Shown here piece after piece: positions 4,143 through 15,591 of a stretch of 19,973 nucleotides of DNA. Position numbers and translations under genes: made by a program. The notes under the pieces are model-generated. The model was given only the letters and a program-made list of their open reading frames with translations. It was not told where the DNA came from and ran no database searches. Source of the DNA: Discostella pseudostelligera (lineage: Eukaryota; Bacillariophyta; Thalassiosirophyceae; Thalassiosirales; Thalassiosiraceae); assembly GCA_036940085.1 (NCBI GenBank), contig JALLBK010000307.1:1-19973 (forward strand), in the 5' to 3' direction. Numbering within the stretch: the stretch's first letter is position 1; each line of letters starts with the position of its first letter.

Positions 4143-6260
4143 ATGCCAACCTGTACGAAGAATTTGCTATGGCATCTGACCGCGAGTGGGCTAGTGGCTG
4201 TGGCAGCTACCACAGGCAACAGTGATGGTGCGGTGGCTATGCATGTTTCTGTAGGTGTAGATAATCCAGCGTCATTGTCGCATCGACGACGCACCATCCA
4301 AGATGCAGCTGGCCAACGCACCCGTCATCATCGACGGTCACAACCACGACGGTCACGACGACAACGAGTACAATCGGGTAATGAGCTGTCTCATCCTCCT
4401 GCTCGACGACGGCAGCTAGATCTTGATTTGAAAATACTAGCTGACTTAGACAATGAATCGTCGGCATCCACTGTCTATCATTCAACATCTCAACTACTAC
4501 CCCTCCCTGCGGACATGCTGTCACACCTCCCACATAGACTACTGGACGAAAGTAATAGTCATACCAATGAAGTTGATGGTGATGATGCCACCGCTCTATC
4601 CATTCAACCTCGAATCATCAACGGTCTGCCCACCGCACCCAATCGCTACCCCTACCTCTCCTCCCTCATTCAGAATTTCGACATGAAACACATGTGCGGG
4701 GGAACGTTAATCGCACCCGACATAATATTAACTGCCGGACATTGCAGTGGGGCTTTTGATACCATCCAGGTTGGTCGATATGATAGAGTCAATCAACAAG
4801 TCGGGACATTTGACCATTTACTTGTAGAAAAACACATGGTTCATCCGGGGTTTAGCAATGTCATCATGAATGATTTTGCATTGGCCAAATTATATGGTAC
4901 ATCGACTGTCGAACCTGTCCGTATTAATAATCGACGGAATCTCCCATCGGTGGGGGAACAATTGTCTGTCATGGGATGGGGGGTAACCGTCGAGGGGATG
5001 ACCGAAACATCCTCGGATGTACTGCGCAGTATTAATGTCAGTGCACTTAGTAATGATGCATGCAACAATTCCACGGGCATGTATCAGGGCAAATTTGTTA
5101 GTTTGGCCGGATACATTGTCGAGAATATGTTGTGTGCGTGGAATACCAATCAGGATGCTTGTCAGGGTGATTCGGGAGGGCCATTGATCTACACGGACGA
5201 TGAGAGAGACGAGGATATTCAGGTGGGCATTGTGAGTTGGGGGCTGGGATGCGCCAGTTCCTTCCCGGGGGTGTATTCTCGAATTTCCTCCGAGTATAGT
5301 TGGATCCGTGAGACTGTATGTGCCAATTCGGTTAGTCCACCAAGTTACTTCGTCTGTGATGGCGGTGTGGTCTCGACGAGTGGGTGGGCGATGGCTACGT
5401 CCGAGGTTACCATTGCGATTGAATTGGATGGTGCACCCGAAGATACGAGCTTTGTGTTAGAGGAGGATCCAGAGTCGGTAATTGCCATGGGGAGGACGGC
5501 ACTGATTGACGGTCTGTCGCATGTACCCTTTGATACTTTCAATGCTACGTTATCGACGGTGAACCGCGTGATGTTCGTGGCACCAAACAAACTGTATCGT
5601 TTGACAGTGTTAGATCGAGGATTTAATGGAATACAACCAAAATCGGGTATGGATCGACAATCTCGATTTCGAATGTGTCATGGCAATGTTAGTGGCGACG
5701 AATGCATCAACGCCGCAACTGACTCGGATGTAGTAATTTGTAATGGTGCTGGTGATTTCGACGTCTCGAGGTCAATCTACTGCTTTGTGGAGCAGGTGGG
5801 AACACTATCGCCCTCTACGAGTCCAACAATAGTGCAGAAGCCACCAACGTATGCTCCATTGGTGCTACCTATCATGGATGATGATCGGTTACCCACCATG
5901 TCTCCGTCTCTCGTACCAACGCCTGAGCCAAGTGCCCAGATAACAATGGAACCCTCGATCGTTAATGGTACAGCTGCTCCGACAAAGGTTGTTCCTACGT
6001 CATTTTTATTGGGTACTTCGCTGCAAGCCTTTTCCAACCCCGGCGAAACGGGTGAAGGTGTGTCAAACGACATTGTTGTTGAAGTTAATCAGACAAATGC
6101 GGAGGTAAATAACACTGGCGTCGGGGTCAAGGAAACTGGTGCCAATCAGCCTGTCAATACGAGCTTGGGAAAGACAGATTCATCTTCTTCGTCAGGAAGA
6201 GCGTTTGTTGTTGCATCAATGGTGGCCATCGCTATTTCAACTGTCGTTTTCGCCATATGA
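4143..6260 (+). CDS. Secreted trypsin-like serine protease with C-terminal anchor
   Basis: 705 aa. The ATG at 4143 gives a plausible signal peptide (residues 1-32, hydrophobic LTASGLVAVAATTG); the frame has no upstream ATG before a stop at 3930. A very basic propeptide (47-76) leads to the activation site R157|IING. The S1 chymotrypsin-fold domain (158-about 393) keeps the triad H200 (TAGHC), D244 (NDFALAKL) and S344 (GDSGGP). D338 is at the specificity site, so cleavage after Lys/Arg is expected. Residues about 419-515 resemble the beta-rich domain that often follows such proteases in diatoms (IELDGAPEDTSFVLEE ... YRLTVLDRGFNGI), though its usual DGICC motif is lost. A Pro/Ser/Thr-rich linker (552-620) leads to a hydrophobic tail ending exactly at the C-terminus after a serine run, as in a GPI-anchor signal or a tail anchor. 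Substrate unknown. It converges on the antiporter gene across 163 bp. Confidence 0.88.
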   Translation: MPTCTKNLLWHLTASGLVAVAATTGNSDGAVAMHVSVGVDNPASLSHRRRTIQDAAGQRTRHHRRSQPRRSRRQRVQSGNELSHPPARRRQLDLDLKILADLDNESSASTVYHSTSQLLPLPADMLSHLPHRLLDESNSHTNEVDGDDATALSIQPRIINGLPTAPNRYPYLSSLIQNFDMKHMCGGTLIAPDIILTAGHCSGAFDTIQVGRYDRVNQQVGTFDHLLVEKHMVHPGFSNVIMNDFALAKLYGTSTVEPVRINNRRNLPSVGEQLSVMGWGVTVEGMTETSSDVLRSINVSALSNDACNNSTGMYQGKFVSLAGYIVENMLCAWNTNQDACQGDSGGPLIYTDDERDEDIQVGIVSWGLGCASSFPGVYSRISSEYSWIRETVCANSVSPPSYFVCDGGVVSTSGWAMATSEVTIAIELDGAPEDTSFVLEEDPESVIAMGRTALIDGLSHVPFDTFNATLSTVNRVMFVAPNKLYRLTVLDRGFNGIQPKSGMDRQSRFRMCHGNVSGDECINAATDSDVVICNGAGDFDVSRSIYCFVEQVGTLSPSTSPTIVQKPPTYAPLVLPIMDDDRLPTMSPSLVPTPEPSAQITMEPSIVNGTAAPTKVVPTSFLLGTSLQAFSNPGETGEGVSNDIVVEVNQTNAEVNNTGVGVKETGANQPVNTSLGKTDSSSSSGRAFVVASMVAIAISTVVFAI

Positions 6261-6423: not shown

Positions 6424-7917
6424 TCAATCAAACTTATCCTTCTCCAAAGAAGTGGCAATTCTTGCCCCCAGTTCCTCGGCGAGTGGTGTAAGTGCCATGG
6501 TTAAACTGACAGCAGTCAACATGAGCTTCGTCGTAGCTTCGTCCAAAATACCATGCGATCGCGCCATTCGGAACGCAACGAAGGAAAATTCAGAAACCTC
6601 ACTTAATAGGAAACCGGCCCGTAGAGACTCCGCTAGAGTCAGCCCAAATACTCGACACAAAGCAGTGATAATTGCTCCCTTTCCGGCCATTATGGCAAGT
6701 ACAATCGATGCGACCAAACCGAACTGAGATGTGACGAGTCCTAGATCGATTTCGAACCCAACGCTGAAGAAGAAGAGCCCAACTAGAACTCCACGAAAGG
6801 GTGATATTTCAGCTTCTATCTTCTCCTTGTGCTTCGATGATGCAAGTATCATCCCCGACACGAAGGAACCTAGTGTATTGCTTAAACCTAATCCTTCCGT
6901 AAAAAACGACATTCCGAGCACTATTGCTAAAATCAAGCCCACGAAAGCCTCCTGGTTATGCGCCGACACAACCCAATCGAACAATGGATCGAATACAAAC
7001 TTTCCACACACTCCCAGGGTAGATAGTGCCATGGCAAAAGCTACTCCTGCCGATGCAAACGCCTTTCCCAAAGCATCTCCTCCCCCCGCAAGTAATGGTG
7101 TGACAACCAATAATGGCACGACGGCCAAATCCTGTAATATGAGCACTCCCAACGAGGACTTGCCATGACGTGTTTCCAACTGTTGTTTATCCTTGAGCAG
7201 TTGCAAAACAAACGCCGAGCTTGACAATGCAAGTCCACCACCAAGCACTACCATAGCCGCCGATGAAAGGCCACAAAGTTTGGCAATACCCGCCACAGTG
7301 CTGGCGGTCAATATAACCTGAGCTAAACCCAACCCAAACACATCCTTCTTCATACTCATCAGTGTGTCGAAATTGATGTGCAGTCCCATCTCGAATAGAA
7401 AGAAAACAATTCCTAAATCAGCCAACATTTCCGTGCGATGAACGTCGGCGATGAGTCCACCCTTGATGCCATTGGGACCGAGTGCCATGCCCGCGGCGAG
7501 GAAGCCAAGAATGTTCGAAATGCCCAAACGTTTGCAAATTGGTGCGACGACTGCGGTTGTGGCAAGTAGTGAAAGTGTGTCGGATTTCGCGCCTTCCATA
7601 TAACTCGATAGTCCAGATAGGAGAGCAGCTACCATGTTAGAAGAGGAGGGTATGGAGGTGACAGTCGCCCCGTCTATGTGGCCGCCGCGGGGTATGCCGC
7701 AGACGGATGTGACGGTGCCAGTGGCAGAGGCCGCGGCGGAATGATTGCTCCCATCGTCATTACAAGAAATGGTCGTCGGTGGTGATGGTCGAGCAAACAA
7801 TACTGATGAACGTGGATAGAACGGGGTATAGCTATGAGATCGTGCGTCGCTGCCTGTTGAGAAGATGGCAGCGCTGGCGGCGGCAATCAATACGGTGGAT
7901 TTCATCTTCCTGTTCAT
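6424..7917 (-). CDS. CPA2-family (KefB/KEA-type) cation/proton antiporter, membrane domain only
   Basis: 497 aa. An N-terminal signal-like stretch (5-25) and a Ser/Thr-rich low-acid leader to about residue 95 suggest a secretory or plastid presequence; no clear ASA|F site is visible, so plastid location is inferred. Residues 112-485 form the Na+/H+ exchanger fold of about 11-12 helices. Hallmarks are LGFLAAGMALGPNG (137-150), ADLGIVFFLFEMGLHI (166-181), GGGLALSSSAFVLQLL, LILQDLAVVPLLVV (259-272), FFFSVGFEIDL and SEVSEFSFVAF. The Q262-D263 pair in helix 5 is typical of K+/H+ antiporters of the KefC/KEA group. The regulatory TrkA-N/RCK domain found in KefC and KEA proteins is missing, and there is no room for it before the converging protease gene. 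A second in-frame ATG at codon 5 is also possible. Its promoter holds an array of CACGTG boxes. Confidence 0.85.
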   Translation of the reverse strand: MNRKMKSTVLIAAASAAIFSTGSDARSHSYTPFYPRSSVLFARPSPPTTISCNDDGSNHSAAASATGTVTSVCGIPRGGHIDGATVTSIPSSSNMVAALLSGLSSYMEGAKSDTLSLLATTAVVAPICKRLGISNILGFLAAGMALGPNGIKGGLIADVHRTEMLADLGIVFFLFEMGLHINFDTLMSMKKDVFGLGLAQVILTASTVAGIAKLCGLSSAAMVVLGGGLALSSSAFVLQLLKDKQQLETRHGKSSLGVLILQDLAVVPLLVVTPLLAGGGDALGKAFASAGVAFAMALSTLGVCGKFVFDPLFDWVVSAHNQEAFVGLILAIVLGMSFFTEGLGLSNTLGSFVSGMILASSKHKEKIEAEISPFRGVLVGLFFFSVGFEIDLGLVTSQFGLVASIVLAIMAGKGAIITALCRVFGLTLAESLRAGFLLSEVSEFSFVAFRMARSHGILDEATTKLMLTAVSLTMALTPLAEELGARIATSLEKDKFD

Positions 7918-8296
7918 GGTGATGCACTGTTATTTGGGTGTGAGGTTCGCGAGAAGCGGCGCTCGAACTCGAGTGACGTGTTAATTGTTTGGAGTTGAGC
8001 TTGACATAATTTTTCGCTGGATTCTGGCAGGAAGAATCATTCCACGTGGCAGGAGAGTCGATATGATATTCCACGTGGCAGAGTGAGTCAACAAGATATT
8101 CCACGTGGCAGGGGCAGGGTGAGATCAGAGATATCAGTGCCACGTACAGCCACCACCGTTCCAACCGGCGGCTGCGTGGTTCATCAGAGTCTACATCATA
8201 AACAACAGAGTACTCCTATGAATAAAGAGGCGTTATTATTATTGTCAAGTGCTACCATTTCCATCGGTCAACAGTCTATTGCTACAAAACATCAGC
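7918..8296. promoter_or_regulatory. Promoter of the antiporter gene and 3' end of the Tic20-like gene
   Basis: These 379 bp separate two minus-strand genes. They contain a TGACGTG at 7974-7980, the triple CACGTG array at 8039-8111, a half-site GCCACGTAC at 8139-8147, and an abbreviated box ATTCTGGCAG at 8021-8030. Short ORFs here look like chance. Confidence 0.65.
8039..8111. promoter_or_regulatory. Triple G-box array (ATTCCACGTGGCAG)
   Basis: Three perfect copies of the 14-mer lie at 8039-8052, 8068-8081 and 8098-8111, spaced 29 and 30 bp. Copies two and three also share the preceding GAT. The core CCACGTGG is a palindromic G-box, the known target of bZIP and bHLH factors in plants and algae. 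The array is 122-194 bp upstream of the antiporter ATG. Which factor binds is inferred. Confidence 0.75.
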
Positions 8297-9552
8297 TCAT
8301 TTTTTGTCAGATTTTTCATCTTCGTCATCCTTCTTAAACGGTACGAACCTTCCACTATCGTCGAACATATCAATTGTAGGCATGCGTTGCTTCACCGACT
8401 GAGATATGATAGGTATGTTACTCGGTTCCTTACCCAACAAGGAGCTGATTGTACAATACAACAGTGTCAGCAGAAGCGTACCAAAGATGACATCAGAGAA
8501 TAACTCTCCAGCCGCATTGCTAACAGGTGATCCAACGCTTCCTGCAATTATTCCTCCCAAACCAAGTACCAATGATGGAAAGATCAGGGCGATATCAAGA
8601 AATATAGCTTGTTGCATGTTGAATCGAACAAGACGATTGAGAGATGGATTTCCGGAAAGAAAGTTCAACGCGAAGAACGCAACAAACCCAGAGAAGGGAA
8701 TTGATCGGTACAGTGCGTACAATAGTGCCACTATCACCACAAATGGATTGGCGCCCGCATCATCCGAGCTGAGTAAGAATCGGCCATATTGCAATCCGTC
8801 CATCAGTGGAAAGAGGTAAGGAAGAACTGATACAATCCTGTCTGATAATGTTGGTTCTTTTTCGTTGAGGAATTCAAGCTTTGCCTCGGCAAGTAAAGCT
8901 TTCTGTTCCATTAGTTTGGCTTCCTTCGCAGCTTCTTCAGCGAGCCGCTTCTCCTCTCGGGCTAGCGCCTCCAACTGATTTCGAAACCTGTCAACAGTTA
9001 CAAAATCATTTAGTTGGAGAGCCCCGTCACCAGACTTATCGAAGACGTCCATTAATTGCTTCACTCTCTGTTCTGATATTTCAGTCTGAATTGGAAAGCA
9101 GGAGAGATTTTTTGAAGATTAGTGTAATGCTCAGTTCGAAGATCACAGATCAATTCGTCAATTAATCTACATACCTTGAGTTCTTTCTCGAGCCCCGCCT
9201 TCAGCTCGCTCAAGCTAACTTCTCCATCCAAATTTATGTCAAACTTCCGAAATGCTTTCTCGGCCGCCAATGCGAGTTGATTTGCCTTGTCGGCCTCAAG
9301 TGCTGCAGCCTCGGCACGAAGCTTGGCCGCCATTTTCTTGAGGCGTTCGATCTCATTATCCTGTGCGTTGTCGTCTTCCGTGCCATAGAGCTGGAATACC
9401 GATGCCGATGACGGGATAATATTGGACGGTGTGATTAAGCTCGCTGCGCGAGTTGCTGGTAGTTGAGCTCGCGCTGCTGGATTGGTGACGAAAGCTTCTG
9501 CCGCGGAGATGGCGACGGCGGCTATTGCGGTGGTCTTGAAATGTTGATACAT
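8297..9552 (-). CDS. TIC20: Plastid-targeted EF-hand/Tic20 fusion protein (two exons)
   Basis: Exons 9175-9552 and 8297-9085 join in phase 0 to give 388 aa. The presequence has a signal peptide cleaved at about A20|F21 (AEA|FVTNP) and a basic Ala/Ser/Thr-rich transit stretch, the diatom pattern for complex plastids. A helical region (about 66-100) precedes two EF-hands: loop DINLDGEVSLSE (105-116, canonical) and loop DKSGDGALQLND (142-153, Asp rather than Glu at position 12). The intron splits the pair exactly between the two hands. A charged coiled coil (155-200) leads to a Tic20-like domain (about 209-353) with LPYLFPLMDGLQYGRFLL, a middle helix pair, and RFNMQQAIFLDIALIFPSL, the family hallmark. 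Tic20 is a channel component of the inner-envelope import complex. Calcium control of import is inferred from the fusion. The tail is Asp/Lys-rich. Confidence 0.82.
9086..9174 (-). other. Intron of the EF-hand/Tic20 gene
   Basis: 89 nt, donor AAG|GTATGT at 9174 and acceptor TTCAG|ACT at 9086. Phase 0. Removal restores the normal spacing between EF-hand 1 and EF-hand 2 (joined residues KELK|TEIS). Reading through instead gives a stop before the second hand. Confidence 0.9.
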
Positions 9553-11613: not shown

Positions 11614-14600
11614 TCAAAGTATTTTCTCCAAAGATCGTGCGAGGCTTAGCAAAATAACCTTGCCCTGTTCACCATCACATGACGAAACTAACGCCGCGCA
11701 TATCGATGCCAGCTTGTGACCATCGGCATCCATGCCGGCCAATCCATCATGCACATGTGGTGTTGCGAGGCTAACTGAATCTGCTCCTCCTGATGACGAT
11801 TGTGTCACTTGTACAAGTGATTCGATATGAAAAAGTAGTGCACGCAATAGTCTCTTCATTCCATCGGCAACATCTGCGCACTCCAACGAAACCTTTTTGT
11901 CGGAAGTACACATACTCACAATCTCGCATGCTCGTTCGATGACAAATTTTAGTATTGGCACGGTGGACTTCAGCGCCTCGTCCAAGAGCAGCGCTACAGT
12001 TTGCGAGCTCTTTTCGTCATGTTGGCCGTCATCAATGATCATACCAATCCCCCCATCAAGGTCAATCCTTGAAACATCAAAACGCGAGCATGCATCGCAA
12101 CGTATCGCCAACGAGACAAACTTCCACCAGTGAGTGAGTACGCAGCTACTGCCTGCAGAGATGGAAAGCTCATCAGCTAATGACCACTTCGCCACAGCCA
12201 TGCAACTCACAATCTTGTTATTCATCAAGCACTCCACCAATGCATTAACCATGGACACATCCCACAGCGGGACGAAATTTCTCATCTCTTCCAACATAGA
12301 CACTTCACCTGCCAATAGCAATTCGTCGTCATCAAGCTTTCCAGAAGACATGCTATCAAACATATCAGCATCTCGTGCCAATGCCGCTAGGACAACAGGT
12401 TTGAATCGCGTAATAGCATCTGTTATATCCGCAAGTAAATCATCTGTGTCATCTACTTCGTCATCCATCATAACATCACTTGGATCCACCCCTTCATTGT
12501 CGGCCGCTGTGCAAGATTTCCATGCCTTTCTCGTGAGCCTGATCGCTCTTAGCCTCTCGCGTAGAATAGGATGGAACAATGCCCGAATAATCAACCTCGC
12601 CCTCCACCAGACACTTTTGTGATACATCGAGTTATCCACATTCGCGCCCGCTGCGTGGGATTCTGAAACTTCATCTGATATTATGTACTGGCGAATGTTT
12701 TCAGGATCGTCAGCGGTATTCCACAAACGGTGGATTAGATCCTTTTCCATCGAGGATATTTCTTTCTCCAGACTTTCGTTATCAAGAACTGATTCAACCA
12801 ACGCACTCCCCGATGGCAAGCAATCTTTGACTACCGCCACCATTCCTTCGCTTGACACGGAAGCAACAGAACGCAGGGCTACCTTAATAAACTCGCCACG
12901 ACTATTCCTACCACTACTCCCTGCATATGGTGCCCAATGGTCCCAATATGCCCTGGGCCATTGATAGTCCGTGTTAACCAAATGAAATCCTAGCCACGTT
13001 CCCAAATTGTCCCTCGCTGATGGGGTCAAACTAGGAATGAAATCTTGAAACATACCACTAATTGCCAATGCAATAGCTTGAGGCACGAGAGTGGGTTGTA
13101 ACTTCGTCAATTCCAATAATATTCGTGAGATGTATAGGTGGGAATGGAGTGGGGAGGAAGATGGAGTGGAGGAATTGATGGGAGTGGTTTGCACAAGAAG
13201 AGATAGAAGTGTTTCGATGATTCCATATTCGATTCCCTTGGAGGCAGCCGCATGCGCGTTTCCCAAAGATGACGACGGTGGTTTGAAAAGGTAACTCACT
13301 GCCCAAATTTGCTCGGCAATCTCCTTAGCAGTATTCCTTTCGGCGCCGGCTTCACTGACCATAGGACGATGACACAGCAATACGTCGCGTATTGCGTCTG
13401 ATAAAAAGAAGCGGTCGATGAGTGAGAATGTATTCACATACGAGTCAAGGTTTGGATTGGTCTCCTTCTTTTTGTCATCTTCCTCCTCATGGTCTCCGTC
13501 GTCAGCAGGGTTGGATGGAGCATCAAAGATGGCTAACCGACCAAAGACGATTCCATCCAATGACCTACAGCGAATCTCAGTATTTTCATTTCCTCCATCA
13601 ACACCCCTTCCACCATCTTCCATGGGAAGCAGGTATGGAATTGACTTGCAACGCCGTTCTTCCCCTCCGACCAAGTCAAGCAAGAGCAGTTCCCCCTCGT
13701 ATGACATTGGTACTGTCTCCATTGTTAATGCCTCCATGCTCATGTTCCCTCGCTCTACCGTAAGCGCTTTCCACGGAGCATCATCAACGAGTGCAAATCG
13801 GGTCATTGGAAAGGAGGATGAATGTTCAGTCGACGATGCAATCAATTTTCGAACAGTTCGTAGTAAATCTTGCAAGGTATCGGCACACGGAGCGGGCTGA
13901 TCTCCCATGTCTCCCTCCATGCCATCCTCCTCCTCATCGTCCTCGTCTTCATCATCACCGTCGATAACACCCGCGGCTAGGGCATCGTCCAATTCTCCCT
14001 TGAGCAATATACTCGATGATCCACATCCCGGATCAAACTCACTTACATAGCCCGAGGAGATACCAACAATGTTATTTTCAATGGATTCGACCATCTCCGA
14101 TAGTCGATGTGGCGTGTTCCCTTTTCCTCCTCTTCCATCTTGCGCAATAATGATTGGTAGCATGTAGGGAATAGTGGATAATACCAATGACGCTAATAGC
14201 TGACTAGCACGAGACAATGCTCGAGAGTGCACGACATTCCCCGAGGATGCAGTAGTATTGACACAGTAGGCTGCACGAATAGCACCCTCCACCAACATCT
14301 CCAACAATCCCAAGAGTGATTTCTCCCCTTCCCCTGCATTTTCCGAGGGAGTGTCATGTCCATCGATCGAGACAATACCCACACATGCCAAATGAGCAAG
14401 GTAGCGCAACAGTAATTTACTCCGAGCATAGGCGTCCAATTGCATTCCGTTCCCAAATCCACCAGTACATTCAGCAACATTGCGTTGGTCCTCTTTTGAT
14501 TTTAGGAGTGATACTTGCTCCTCTTCACTTAGCATCATCCTTGCGTTCATAACATTCTCCGTGGCATCATTGTTGTTTTGGGAATTTGCTTCAAATGTAG

Positions 14601-15591
14601 TAGAACATTCCAACGCCATATCTAAGTCTCGTCCAAACAATCTCATTCCTAGTGTGACACAACGTTGTGCAAATCCAGAATGAGTTTCCTTTGGTGCCTT
14701 GGTGTCCACACCCAAGGTTAATGCAGCGTAGGAGGGTGTTTGGAGGGGTAAATTCGATGAACAGGAGACGAGAAGTGTGGCGAGTGAGCCTGCCTCGATG
14801 GATGCATTGATGACTTTTTTGTTGGATGAGGATGATTCTTGATTCAGTTCATCGGTAGTAGTGCCATCAGCATCATTGCTATCTTGCTTGTTTTCATCAT
14901 TACCTGTATCTGCATTATCATCATCGGCACCAAATTTGAGGAATAGTGGTGCATTCGACGGACCACACAATACCTCAACTAGGTCGGAAACGTTGGTACC
15001 AATTGCCTTGACGATTGGTCGGATGACAGCATCATCATGTGCACTATTTTTGTTGTTGTCGTTGGCGGCATTCTCCAATTCCATGGTAGCATCATTCTCA
15101 GTAGTAGTAGTAGTAGCTGCATTGGAATTCGTAGTAGCCGTAGCTAACACCACCTCCGCCGCCCCGCCCAAATCACCCATCTTGGCCACCATGGCCGTTA
15201 ATTGTTTCATCATGGCATTTTGGGGGGAAACACTTTTAGTTTCGGTGGTGAATCGATTGGCCGGATGACGCTGCTGTCCATGATTGCCGCCACCACCGCC
15301 ATAATTGCTACCGCCACCTCCTCTGTACCCGCCACCCCTGTAGCCACCTCCACCACCACCCCCTCGACCGCCACTTCCTCTGCCACCACCACCACCGCCG
15401 CCGCCACCACGATGGCCATACTGACCGTCAGGATCATCGCGTCGATAGGGATGGTGGAACCTACCACCTCGGCCACTGCCGCCGCCGCGGCCTCGACCAC
15501 CACCGCGATATCCACCACCTCGATAGCCGCCACCACCAGCAGAAGCTAGTCTGGGATTATTGTAACGATCCGATGACAAGGCTCCATCCAT
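11614..15591 (-). CDS. NCBP1: Nuclear cap-binding protein subunit 1 (CBP80) with RGG-rich N-terminus
   Basis: Single-exon, 1325 aa; animal CBP80 is about 790 aa. The MIF4G-type helical repeats are recognisable in order: KLLLRYLAHLACVGIV (about 392-407), RFFLSDAIRDVLLC (about 730), LLELTKLQPTLVPQAIALAISGMF followed by WLGFHLVNTDYQWPRAYWDHW (about 825-890), and FVPLWDVSMVNALVECLMNNKIVSCMAVAKWSLADEL (about 1105-1140). These match the human CBP80 blocks IELCKLQPGSLPQVLAQA, WFSHHLSNFQFRWSWEDW and MIAVLVDKMIRTQIVDCAAVANWIF. CBP80 pairs with CBP20 to bind the 5' cap of polymerase II transcripts in the nucleus and supports splicing, snRNA export and decay. The extra length comes from an RGG/YRGGG tract (about 15-105), acidic loops (such as DGDDEDEDDEEEDG) and Asn/Thr-rich linkers. 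It shares a promoter with the SPRY gene and lies 16 bp from the next start downstream. Confidence 0.85.
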   Translation of the reverse strand: MDGALSSDRYNNPRLASAGGGGYRGGGYRGGGRGRGGGSGRGGRFHHPYRRDDPDGQYGHRGGGGGGGGGRGSGGRGGGGGGGYRGGGYRGGGGSNYGGGGGNHGQQRHPANRFTTETKSVSPQNAMMKQLTAMVAKMGDLGGAAEVVLATATTNSNAATTTTTENDATMELENAANDNNKNSAHDDAVIRPIVKAIGTNVSDLVEVLCGPSNAPLFLKFGADDDNADTGNDENKQDSNDADGTTTDELNQESSSSNKKVINASIEAGSLATLLVSCSSNLPLQTPSYAALTLGVDTKAPKETHSGFAQRCVTLGMRLFGRDLDMALECSTTFEANSQNNNDATENVMNARMMLSEEEQVSLLKSKEDQRNVAECTGGFGNGMQLDAYARSKLLLRYLAHLACVGIVSIDGHDTPSENAGEGEKSLLGLLEMLVEGAIRAAYCVNTTASSGNVVHSRALSRASQLLASLVLSTIPYMLPIIIAQDGRGGKGNTPHRLSEMVESIENNIVGISSGYVSEFDPGCGSSSILLKGELDDALAAGVIDGDDEDEDDEEEDGMEGDMGDQPAPCADTLQDLLRTVRKLIASSTEHSSSFPMTRFALVDDAPWKALTVERGNMSMEALTMETVPMSYEGELLLLDLVGGEERRCKSIPYLLPMEDGGRGVDGGNENTEIRCRSLDGIVFGRLAIFDAPSNPADDGDHEEEDDKKKETNPNLDSYVNTFSLIDRFFLSDAIRDVLLCHRPMVSEAGAERNTAKEIAEQIWAVSYLFKPPSSSLGNAHAAASKGIEYGIIETLLSLLVQTTPINSSTPSSSPLHSHLYISRILLELTKLQPTLVPQAIALAISGMFQDFIPSLTPSARDNLGTWLGFHLVNTDYQWPRAYWDHWAPYAGSSGRNSRGEFIKVALRSVASVSSEGMVAVVKDCLPSGSALVESVLDNESLEKEISSMEKDLIHRLWNTADDPENIRQYIISDEVSESHAAGANVDNSMYHKSVWWRARLIIRALFHPILRERLRAIRLTRKAWKSCTAADNEGVDPSDVMMDDEVDDTDDLLADITDAITRFKPVVLAALARDADMFDSMSSGKLDDDELLLAGEVSMLEEMRNFVPLWDVSMVNALVECLMNNKIVSCMAVAKWSLADELSISAGSSCVLTHWWKFVSLAIRCDACSRFDVSRIDLDGGIGMIIDDGQHDEKSSQTVALLLDEALKSTVPILKFVIERACEIVSMCTSDKKVSLECADVADGMKRLLRALLFHIESLVQVTQSSSGGADSVSLATPHVHDGLAGMDADGHKLASICAALVSSCDGEQGKVILLSLARSLEKIL
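15280..15536 (-). repeat. GGN trinucleotide tract encoding the RGG/YRGGG region
   Basis: On the minus strand this is a nearly continuous run of GGT, GGC and GGA codons broken by CGA/CGT and TAC/TAT. It encodes YRGGGYRGGGRGRGGGSGRGGR and, after a His/Arg patch, a second RGSGGRGGGGGGGYRGGG block. The imperfect unit argues for protein-level selection as well as slippage. Confidence 0.8.

Follow-up and report, generated by a model that had tools for sequence, protein, structure and literature searches.

An EF-hand-Tic20 fusion protein in the diatom Discostella pseudostelligera, encoded alongside a second, EF-hand-free Tic20

We analyzed a 19,973-nucleotide window from the diatom Discostella pseudostelligera, comprising the whole of contig JALLBK010000307.1 (C307) of a 23.0 Mb assembly in 963 contigs (GCA_036940085.1). 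On its minus strand, between positions 8297 and 9552, two joined exons give one 388-amino-acid (aa) frame in which a pair of EF-hands precedes a Tic20-type plastid import domain. This EF-hand-Tic20 fusion is real and conserved, yet it is of a kind already described for diatoms and their relatives. Added here are the conservation of the metal ligands, the rarity of an aspartate at position 12 of loop 2 (Asp12), and the coexistence of two distant Tic20 forms, findings that specialists may be able to use. The parts of the gene, in the order of the protein, are as follows; the two helices are predicted, by alignment, from a model of a relative, P0005.

9175–9552, minus strand: exon 1, residues 1–126 (presequence, N-terminal helix, EF-hand 1)
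9388–9552, minus strand: plastid-type presequence, about residues 1–55 (end estimated), SAAEA/FVTNP
9262–9372, minus strand: N-terminal helix into EF-hand 1, residues 61–97 (P0005 model helix 56–102)
9205–9240, minus strand: EF-hand loop 1 DINLDGEVSLSE, residues 105–116, canonical
9086–9174, minus strand: intron, 89 nucleotides (nt), phase 0, GTATGT...TTCAG (GT-AG)
8297–9085, minus strand: exon 2, residues 127–388 (EF-hand 2, long helix, TIC20 domain, charged tail, stop)
9005–9040, minus strand: EF-hand loop 2 DKSGDGALQLND, residues 142–153, Asp at position 12
8855–8992, minus strand: long helix from EF-hand 2 to the membrane domain, residues 158–203 (P0005 model helix 155–196)
8396–8866, minus strand: TIC20 membrane domain, residues 200–356, from Pfam PF16166 and the fold match of the P0005 model

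The Pfam TIC20 family (PF16166) matches residues 200–356 at 59.4 bits (cut-off 28.6, E 5.1e-16), covering positions 27–180 of the 181 in the profile, and EF-hand_7 matches residues 98–156 at 38.9 bits (cut-off 30, E 1.1e-9). The EF-hand pair is therefore N-terminal to TIC20 within a single polypeptide, as in the ochrophyte EF-hand-Tic20 proteins. We compared the protein with its relatives in an alignment of 203 rows, many of them near kin, made up of the query, 120 relatives from a first listing and 82 additional ones; a subset of 60 rows with less than 80% identity was taken from the first 121. All listed relatives that bear organism names are diatoms, the nearest being species of Thalassiosira. 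Across the 60 rows, mean conservation is 0.249 for the presequence, 0.792 for the EF pair and 0.751 for TIC20. The N terminus of the protein is hydrophobic, and Phe21, directly after SAAEA, is phenylalanine in 149 of the 151 rows that carry a residue at this position, the other 36 of the 187 being gapped; together these would fit a putative bipartite presequence. The context of Phe21 fits the diatom ASAFAP-type motif. A sequence-only reading of this DNA had proposed a plastid presequence, an EF-hand pair and a Tic20 domain, and that architecture is right, the presequence being of plastid type. The same reading was to fall if a profile search gave no Tic20 match to residues 209–353, and as the match spans these residues, that refutation does not apply.

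The reading frame alone permits 58 introns, since that many GT-AG pairs separated by 50–400 nt keep the frame open, the 89-nt intron being one of them; the splice is decided by the relatives. The junction KELK/TEIS, or its equivalent, is read continuously in all 18 relatives hand-picked for display from the 121 rows, 14 of which have a transcriptome (MMETSP) source or name. Sixteen database models lack exon 1, and 11 of them run back into the intron as ...Q/TEIS, where the Q is what the final CAG of the intron yields when translated through. Because this read-through falls at one place in the relatives, the position of the intron is common to the gene and its relatives. QTEIS occurs in only one of the remaining 186 relatives, P0072, whose full-length model has a 30-residue insertion between the EF loops, at the position of the junction, that looks like a retained intron. 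The intron has a GC content of 0.35 compared with 0.47 for the exons, and an in-frame stop lies five codons upstream of the ATG of the gene. Both the phase-0 intron and the single protein of the sequence-only reading hold, given that all the displayed relatives are joined at this point. An annotation artefact, with either a wrong splice or two adjacent genes, would be in keeping with the 251-aa open reading frame (ORF) with an ATG start that exon 2 contains by itself, with the absence of loop 1 from 16 of the 203 rows, and with the 57 further GT-AG pairs that likewise keep the frame open. We rejected this explanation as extremely improbable on the basis of the joined junction, transcript-derived in those 14 cases, the intron sequence translated in 11 of 16 short models, and the presence of both loops in 187 rows, 186 of which space them by 37 residues.

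Both loops of the query have ligands at positions 1, 3, 5, and 12 and glycine at position 6, with Asp in place of Glu at position 12 of loop 2. Their starts (residues 105 and 142) have the same 37-residue spacing. Among the 187 rows with both loops, which leave out the 16 of 203 without loop 1, 183 pass the strict canonical test for loop 1 and 175 pass it for loop 2. In the 60-row set, loop 1 is canonical in all 60 rows and loop 2 has Glu12 in 56. Five of the 12 rows that fail the strict loop 2 test, which demands Glu12, have threonine at position 3 (P0040, P0245, P0252, P0265, and P0276, the last also without Gly6); since Thr3 can remain an oxygen ligand, the strict count is conservative. The ten ligand and glycine positions have a mean conservation of 0.983, compared with 0.755 for the other EF positions, a value equaled by 3 of 20,000 random ten-position sets. 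As judged from these residues, Ca2+-type loops are kept across the sampled relatives. Degenerate forms of loop 2 are seen in P0060 (Asn at positions 1 and 5), P0102 (Thr5), P0260 (Met6), P0318 (Gly5), and P0322 (Thr5), and loop 1 is changed in P0301, P0307, P0309, and P0311.

Of the 203 rows, 199 have Glu at position 12 of loop 2 and four, the query among them, have Asp. The Asp12 of the query is a rare local change. We considered Asp12 as a trait of the family and rejected it on this count; the sequence-only reading was right that loop 1 is canonical and that loop 2 carries Asp12, but the two unlike hands it envisaged are not a feature of the sampled family. By EF-hand chemistry, Asp12 favors Mg2+.

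An AlphaFold2 model of P0005 has two long helices, at residues 56–102 and 155–196, and its membrane part has the Tic20 fold, matching Tic20 of 7vcf, 7xzi, and 8z9y. The EF part resembles the regulatory domain of a carrier (4zcv/4zcu), and calmodulins and CaBP1 match it equally well. The coiled coil of the earlier reading is only partly supported by these predictions: the long helices of the modeled relative speak for it, while the heptad statistics are mixed. With Ile, Leu, Met, Val, and Phe counted at positions a and d, 151 of 5000 shuffles are as good as the N-terminal helix and 437 as good as the C-terminal one; when Ala is included, these numbers become 3017 and 25.

The EF pair could instead be a structural module, permanently filled with Mg2+ or Ca2+, which keeps the stromal helices, or an oligomer, together and senses nothing. 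The preference of Asp12 for Mg2+ would suit such a role in the query, the conservation of the ligands is equally expected of a structural metal site, and the helices flanking the EF pair (0.785 and 0.717) are about as conserved as the pair itself (0.792). Against this, the Glu12 that 199 of the 203 rows carry in loop 2 is canonical for Ca2+, and stromal Ca2+ in a diatom is reported to be dynamic (PMC11663583). We consider a purely structural module fairly unlikely.

The fusion is not the only Tic20 of this organism. When the assembly was searched in full for TIC20 (six frames, introns ignored), two places emerged, this gene and C310:4559–4990, and a search of the assembly with the exon 2 protein returned the same two loci, with one copy of the EF form. 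The second gene, which we call the plain form, is located as follows.

L002:1066–1956 (TIC20 match at C310:4559–4990), plus strand: plain Tic20, 296 aa, TIC20 at 49.8 bits, no EF-hand by Pfam

The plain form retrieved 164 relatives, the named ones being diatoms, and by name the two forms also coexist in Thalassiosira profunda and Thalassiosira sp. AJA248-18. Profiles for two further translocon components score above their cut-offs in the assembly, Tic110 on C220 at 27.5 bits (cut-off 27) and Tic22 on C783 at 33.2 bits (cut-off 23). With an EF-hand-free Tic20 present, the idea of the sequence-only reading that "the" import channel is switched directly is not established.

We built trees by a quick method from 36 hand-picked rows, 18 for each form, drawn without cyanobacterial or red-algal sequences. 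In the unrooted 36-row tree, the EF and plain forms are split by a branch with an SH-aLRT support of 100, and mean identity is 0.296 between the forms, compared with 0.668 within the EF form and 0.616 within the plain form. The plain-form profile scores 27.7 bits on the Chlamydomonas Tic20 segment and 24.0 bits on that of Arabidopsis Tic20-I, whereas the EF-form profile scores 11.6 and 4.5 bits. When these two green segments were added to the tree, the EF form remained one clade (support 100) and arose inside the plain rows, on branches with support of 54–89; the description of two sister clades thus belongs to the tree built without green rows. The green rows have end branches longer than 2 and an odd composition, and given these very long branches and the weak support, any order of events read from this tree is tentative.

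These comparisons bear on a further explanation, in which the EF form is a specialized Tic20 paralog, serving assembly, stress, or another side function, and the plain form is the general channel, so that Ca2+ would act on a side branch only. The presence of an EF-hand-free Tic20 both here and beside the EF form in the two Thalassiosira, the fully supported branch that parts the two forms, and the closer approach of the plain form to green Tic20 by profile would all be expected. Within the EF form, TIC20 is nevertheless strongly conserved (mean 0.751, 60 rows), the EF form branches inside the plain rows, with support of 54–89, once the two green rows are present, and diatoms carrying the kelp EF form are reported to grow faster (PMC6720183). 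On balance we hold this explanation to be rather improbable.

The reading we put forward, and to which we give about an even chance, is that the protein is a diatom member of the ochrophyte EF-hand-Tic20 family and acts as a stroma-facing, Ca2+-sensing Tic20 paralog. Topology is taken from SjTic20-14, an EF-hand-Tic20 of the kelp Saccharina japonica (Chen 2019, PMC6720183), which lies N-in/C-in in the innermost plastid membrane when expressed in Phaeodactylum, its EF-hand domain and both termini being stromal by split GFP. The nucleus-encoded protein would be carried across the plastid membranes by its presequence, and its Tic20 domain would, by analogy, cross the innermost membrane and leave both termini on the stromal side, where the EF lobe would respond to stromal Ca2+. 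The lobe would be borne at the stromal face on long helices continuing the outer helices of the EF pair, in a manner analogous to mitochondrial carriers with an N-terminal EF-hand module. At low stromal Ca2+ it would be closed; when Ca2+ rises, in high light or with H2O2, loop 1 would bind Ca2+ and loop 2 would do so more weakly, opening the lobe. Movement of the outer helices, or a freshly exposed surface, could then alter how Tic20 meets preproteins or stromal partners, with the EF form working alongside the EF-hand-free Tic20. The present analysis demonstrates the gene structure, the domains, the conservation of the ligands, and the second Tic20; Ca2+ binding, the conformational change, and the effect on import are inferred.

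Stromal Ca2+ has been reported to rise under high light and H2O2 in a diatom, where it is dynamic and measurable (PMC11663583), and EF-hand-Tic20 may perhaps sense these rises. We found no paper in the open-licence literature that links diatom stromal Ca2+ elevations to EF-hand-Tic20, which is no proof of absence, and PMC11663583 contains none of "EF-hand", "Tic", or "protein import" as a whole word. A more specific proposal, which we think unlikely, is that the two diatom Tic20s, the plain one and the one with a stromal Ca2+ sensor, are anciently separate and that a rise in stromal Ca2+ driven by light and H2O2 tunes import through the EF form only, the change from Glu12 to Asp12 setting the threshold in some species.

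Several points weigh against a Ca2+-sensing Tic20. The P0005 model has a pTM of 0.48 and does not fix the orientation of the EF part relative to the membrane, and Foldseek alone found no match for it at E ≤ 0.001. Asp12 in an EF loop is expected to lower Ca2+ affinity. As the plain Tic20 outscores the EF form on green Tic20, the main import channel may be something other than the EF form. SjTic20-14 is no exact counterpart, since its Ca2+ sites, by their reported positions, start 67 residues apart (113 and 180), compared with 37 here, and neither Ca2+ binding nor Ca2+-dependent import is reported for any EF-hand-Tic20 in the portions of the literature examined. The control of import into secondary plastids is little understood, and through the fusion Ca2+ could act on import directly, at a site that can be tested.

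Other features of the window lie on either side of the gene. Three direct copies of TCCACGTGGC at 8041–8109 (starting at 8041, 8070, and 8100, with a spacing of 29–30) have a palindromic CACGTG core and resemble clustered sites of the G-box/E-box type; the window has no further plus-strand copies. They lie downstream of the Tic20 gene and upstream of an antiporter gene at 6424–7917 on the minus strand, a 497-aa ORF with a signal-like N terminus and a Na_H_Exchanger match (PF00999, E 5e-60), which we take from its appearance to be KefB/KEA-like. A 705-aa ORF at 4143–6260 has a trypsin domain (E 2.1e-43) and a hydrophobic C terminus. A 1325-aa ORF at 11614–15591, with a Gly-rich N terminus and MIF4G-like scores of 21.5 and 19.2 bits, below the cut-offs of 27 and 22, is perhaps a large cap-binding protein.

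Among known systems, the closest is the ochrophyte chimeric EF-hand-Tic20, which Dorrell 2017 (PMC5462543) lists as one fusion, probably originating in the ochrophyte ancestor, and credits to an earlier report by Méheust 2016; compared by the description given there, the present protein has no apparent difference. Chen 2019 (PMC6720183) describes EF-hand Tic20s in stramenopiles, including Bacillariophyta, and in dinoflagellates, and proposes modulation of the translocon by Ca2+ as a possibility. With these two papers in print, neither the architecture nor the notion of a Ca2+ switch is new, and the premise of the sequence-only reading that known Tic20 proteins consist of a transit peptide and membrane domain only has to be given up (PMC5462543, PMC6720183). 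The background it gives, which links calcium effects on plant import to Tic32/calmodulin, does agree with PMC5296341. One relative, P0288, carries the database name "Chloroplast import apparatus Tic20-like/EF-hand domain pair". A Phaeodactylum Tic20 gene is named in PMC7596299, and in PMC7460673 Tic20 appears only in the reference list, in a citation of Chen 2019.

SjTic20-14, as reported, has the same order of parts. It is described as having a bipartite presequence, an EF-hand region with two sets of four Ca2+ sites, and a TIC20 domain with four predicted spans. In the kelp, 14 tandem Tic20 genes are predicted, compared with the one EF-form copy found in the D. pseudostelligera assembly, and the tree of PMC6720183 separates S. 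japonica Tic20 from some stramenopile Tic20s, which belong to a different clade. Similarity to the Tic20 of the TIC complex, in Chlamydomonas (7xzi/7vcf) and Arabidopsis (Tic20-I, 8z9y), is very low in sequence, at the 11.6 and 4.5 bits given above. To our knowledge, the Tic20 proteins of these complexes have no EF-hands. The mitochondrial ATP-Mg/Pi carrier (4zcv/4zcu) is Ca2+ regulated and places four EF-hands toward the intermembrane space, on a membrane domain unrelated to Tic20.
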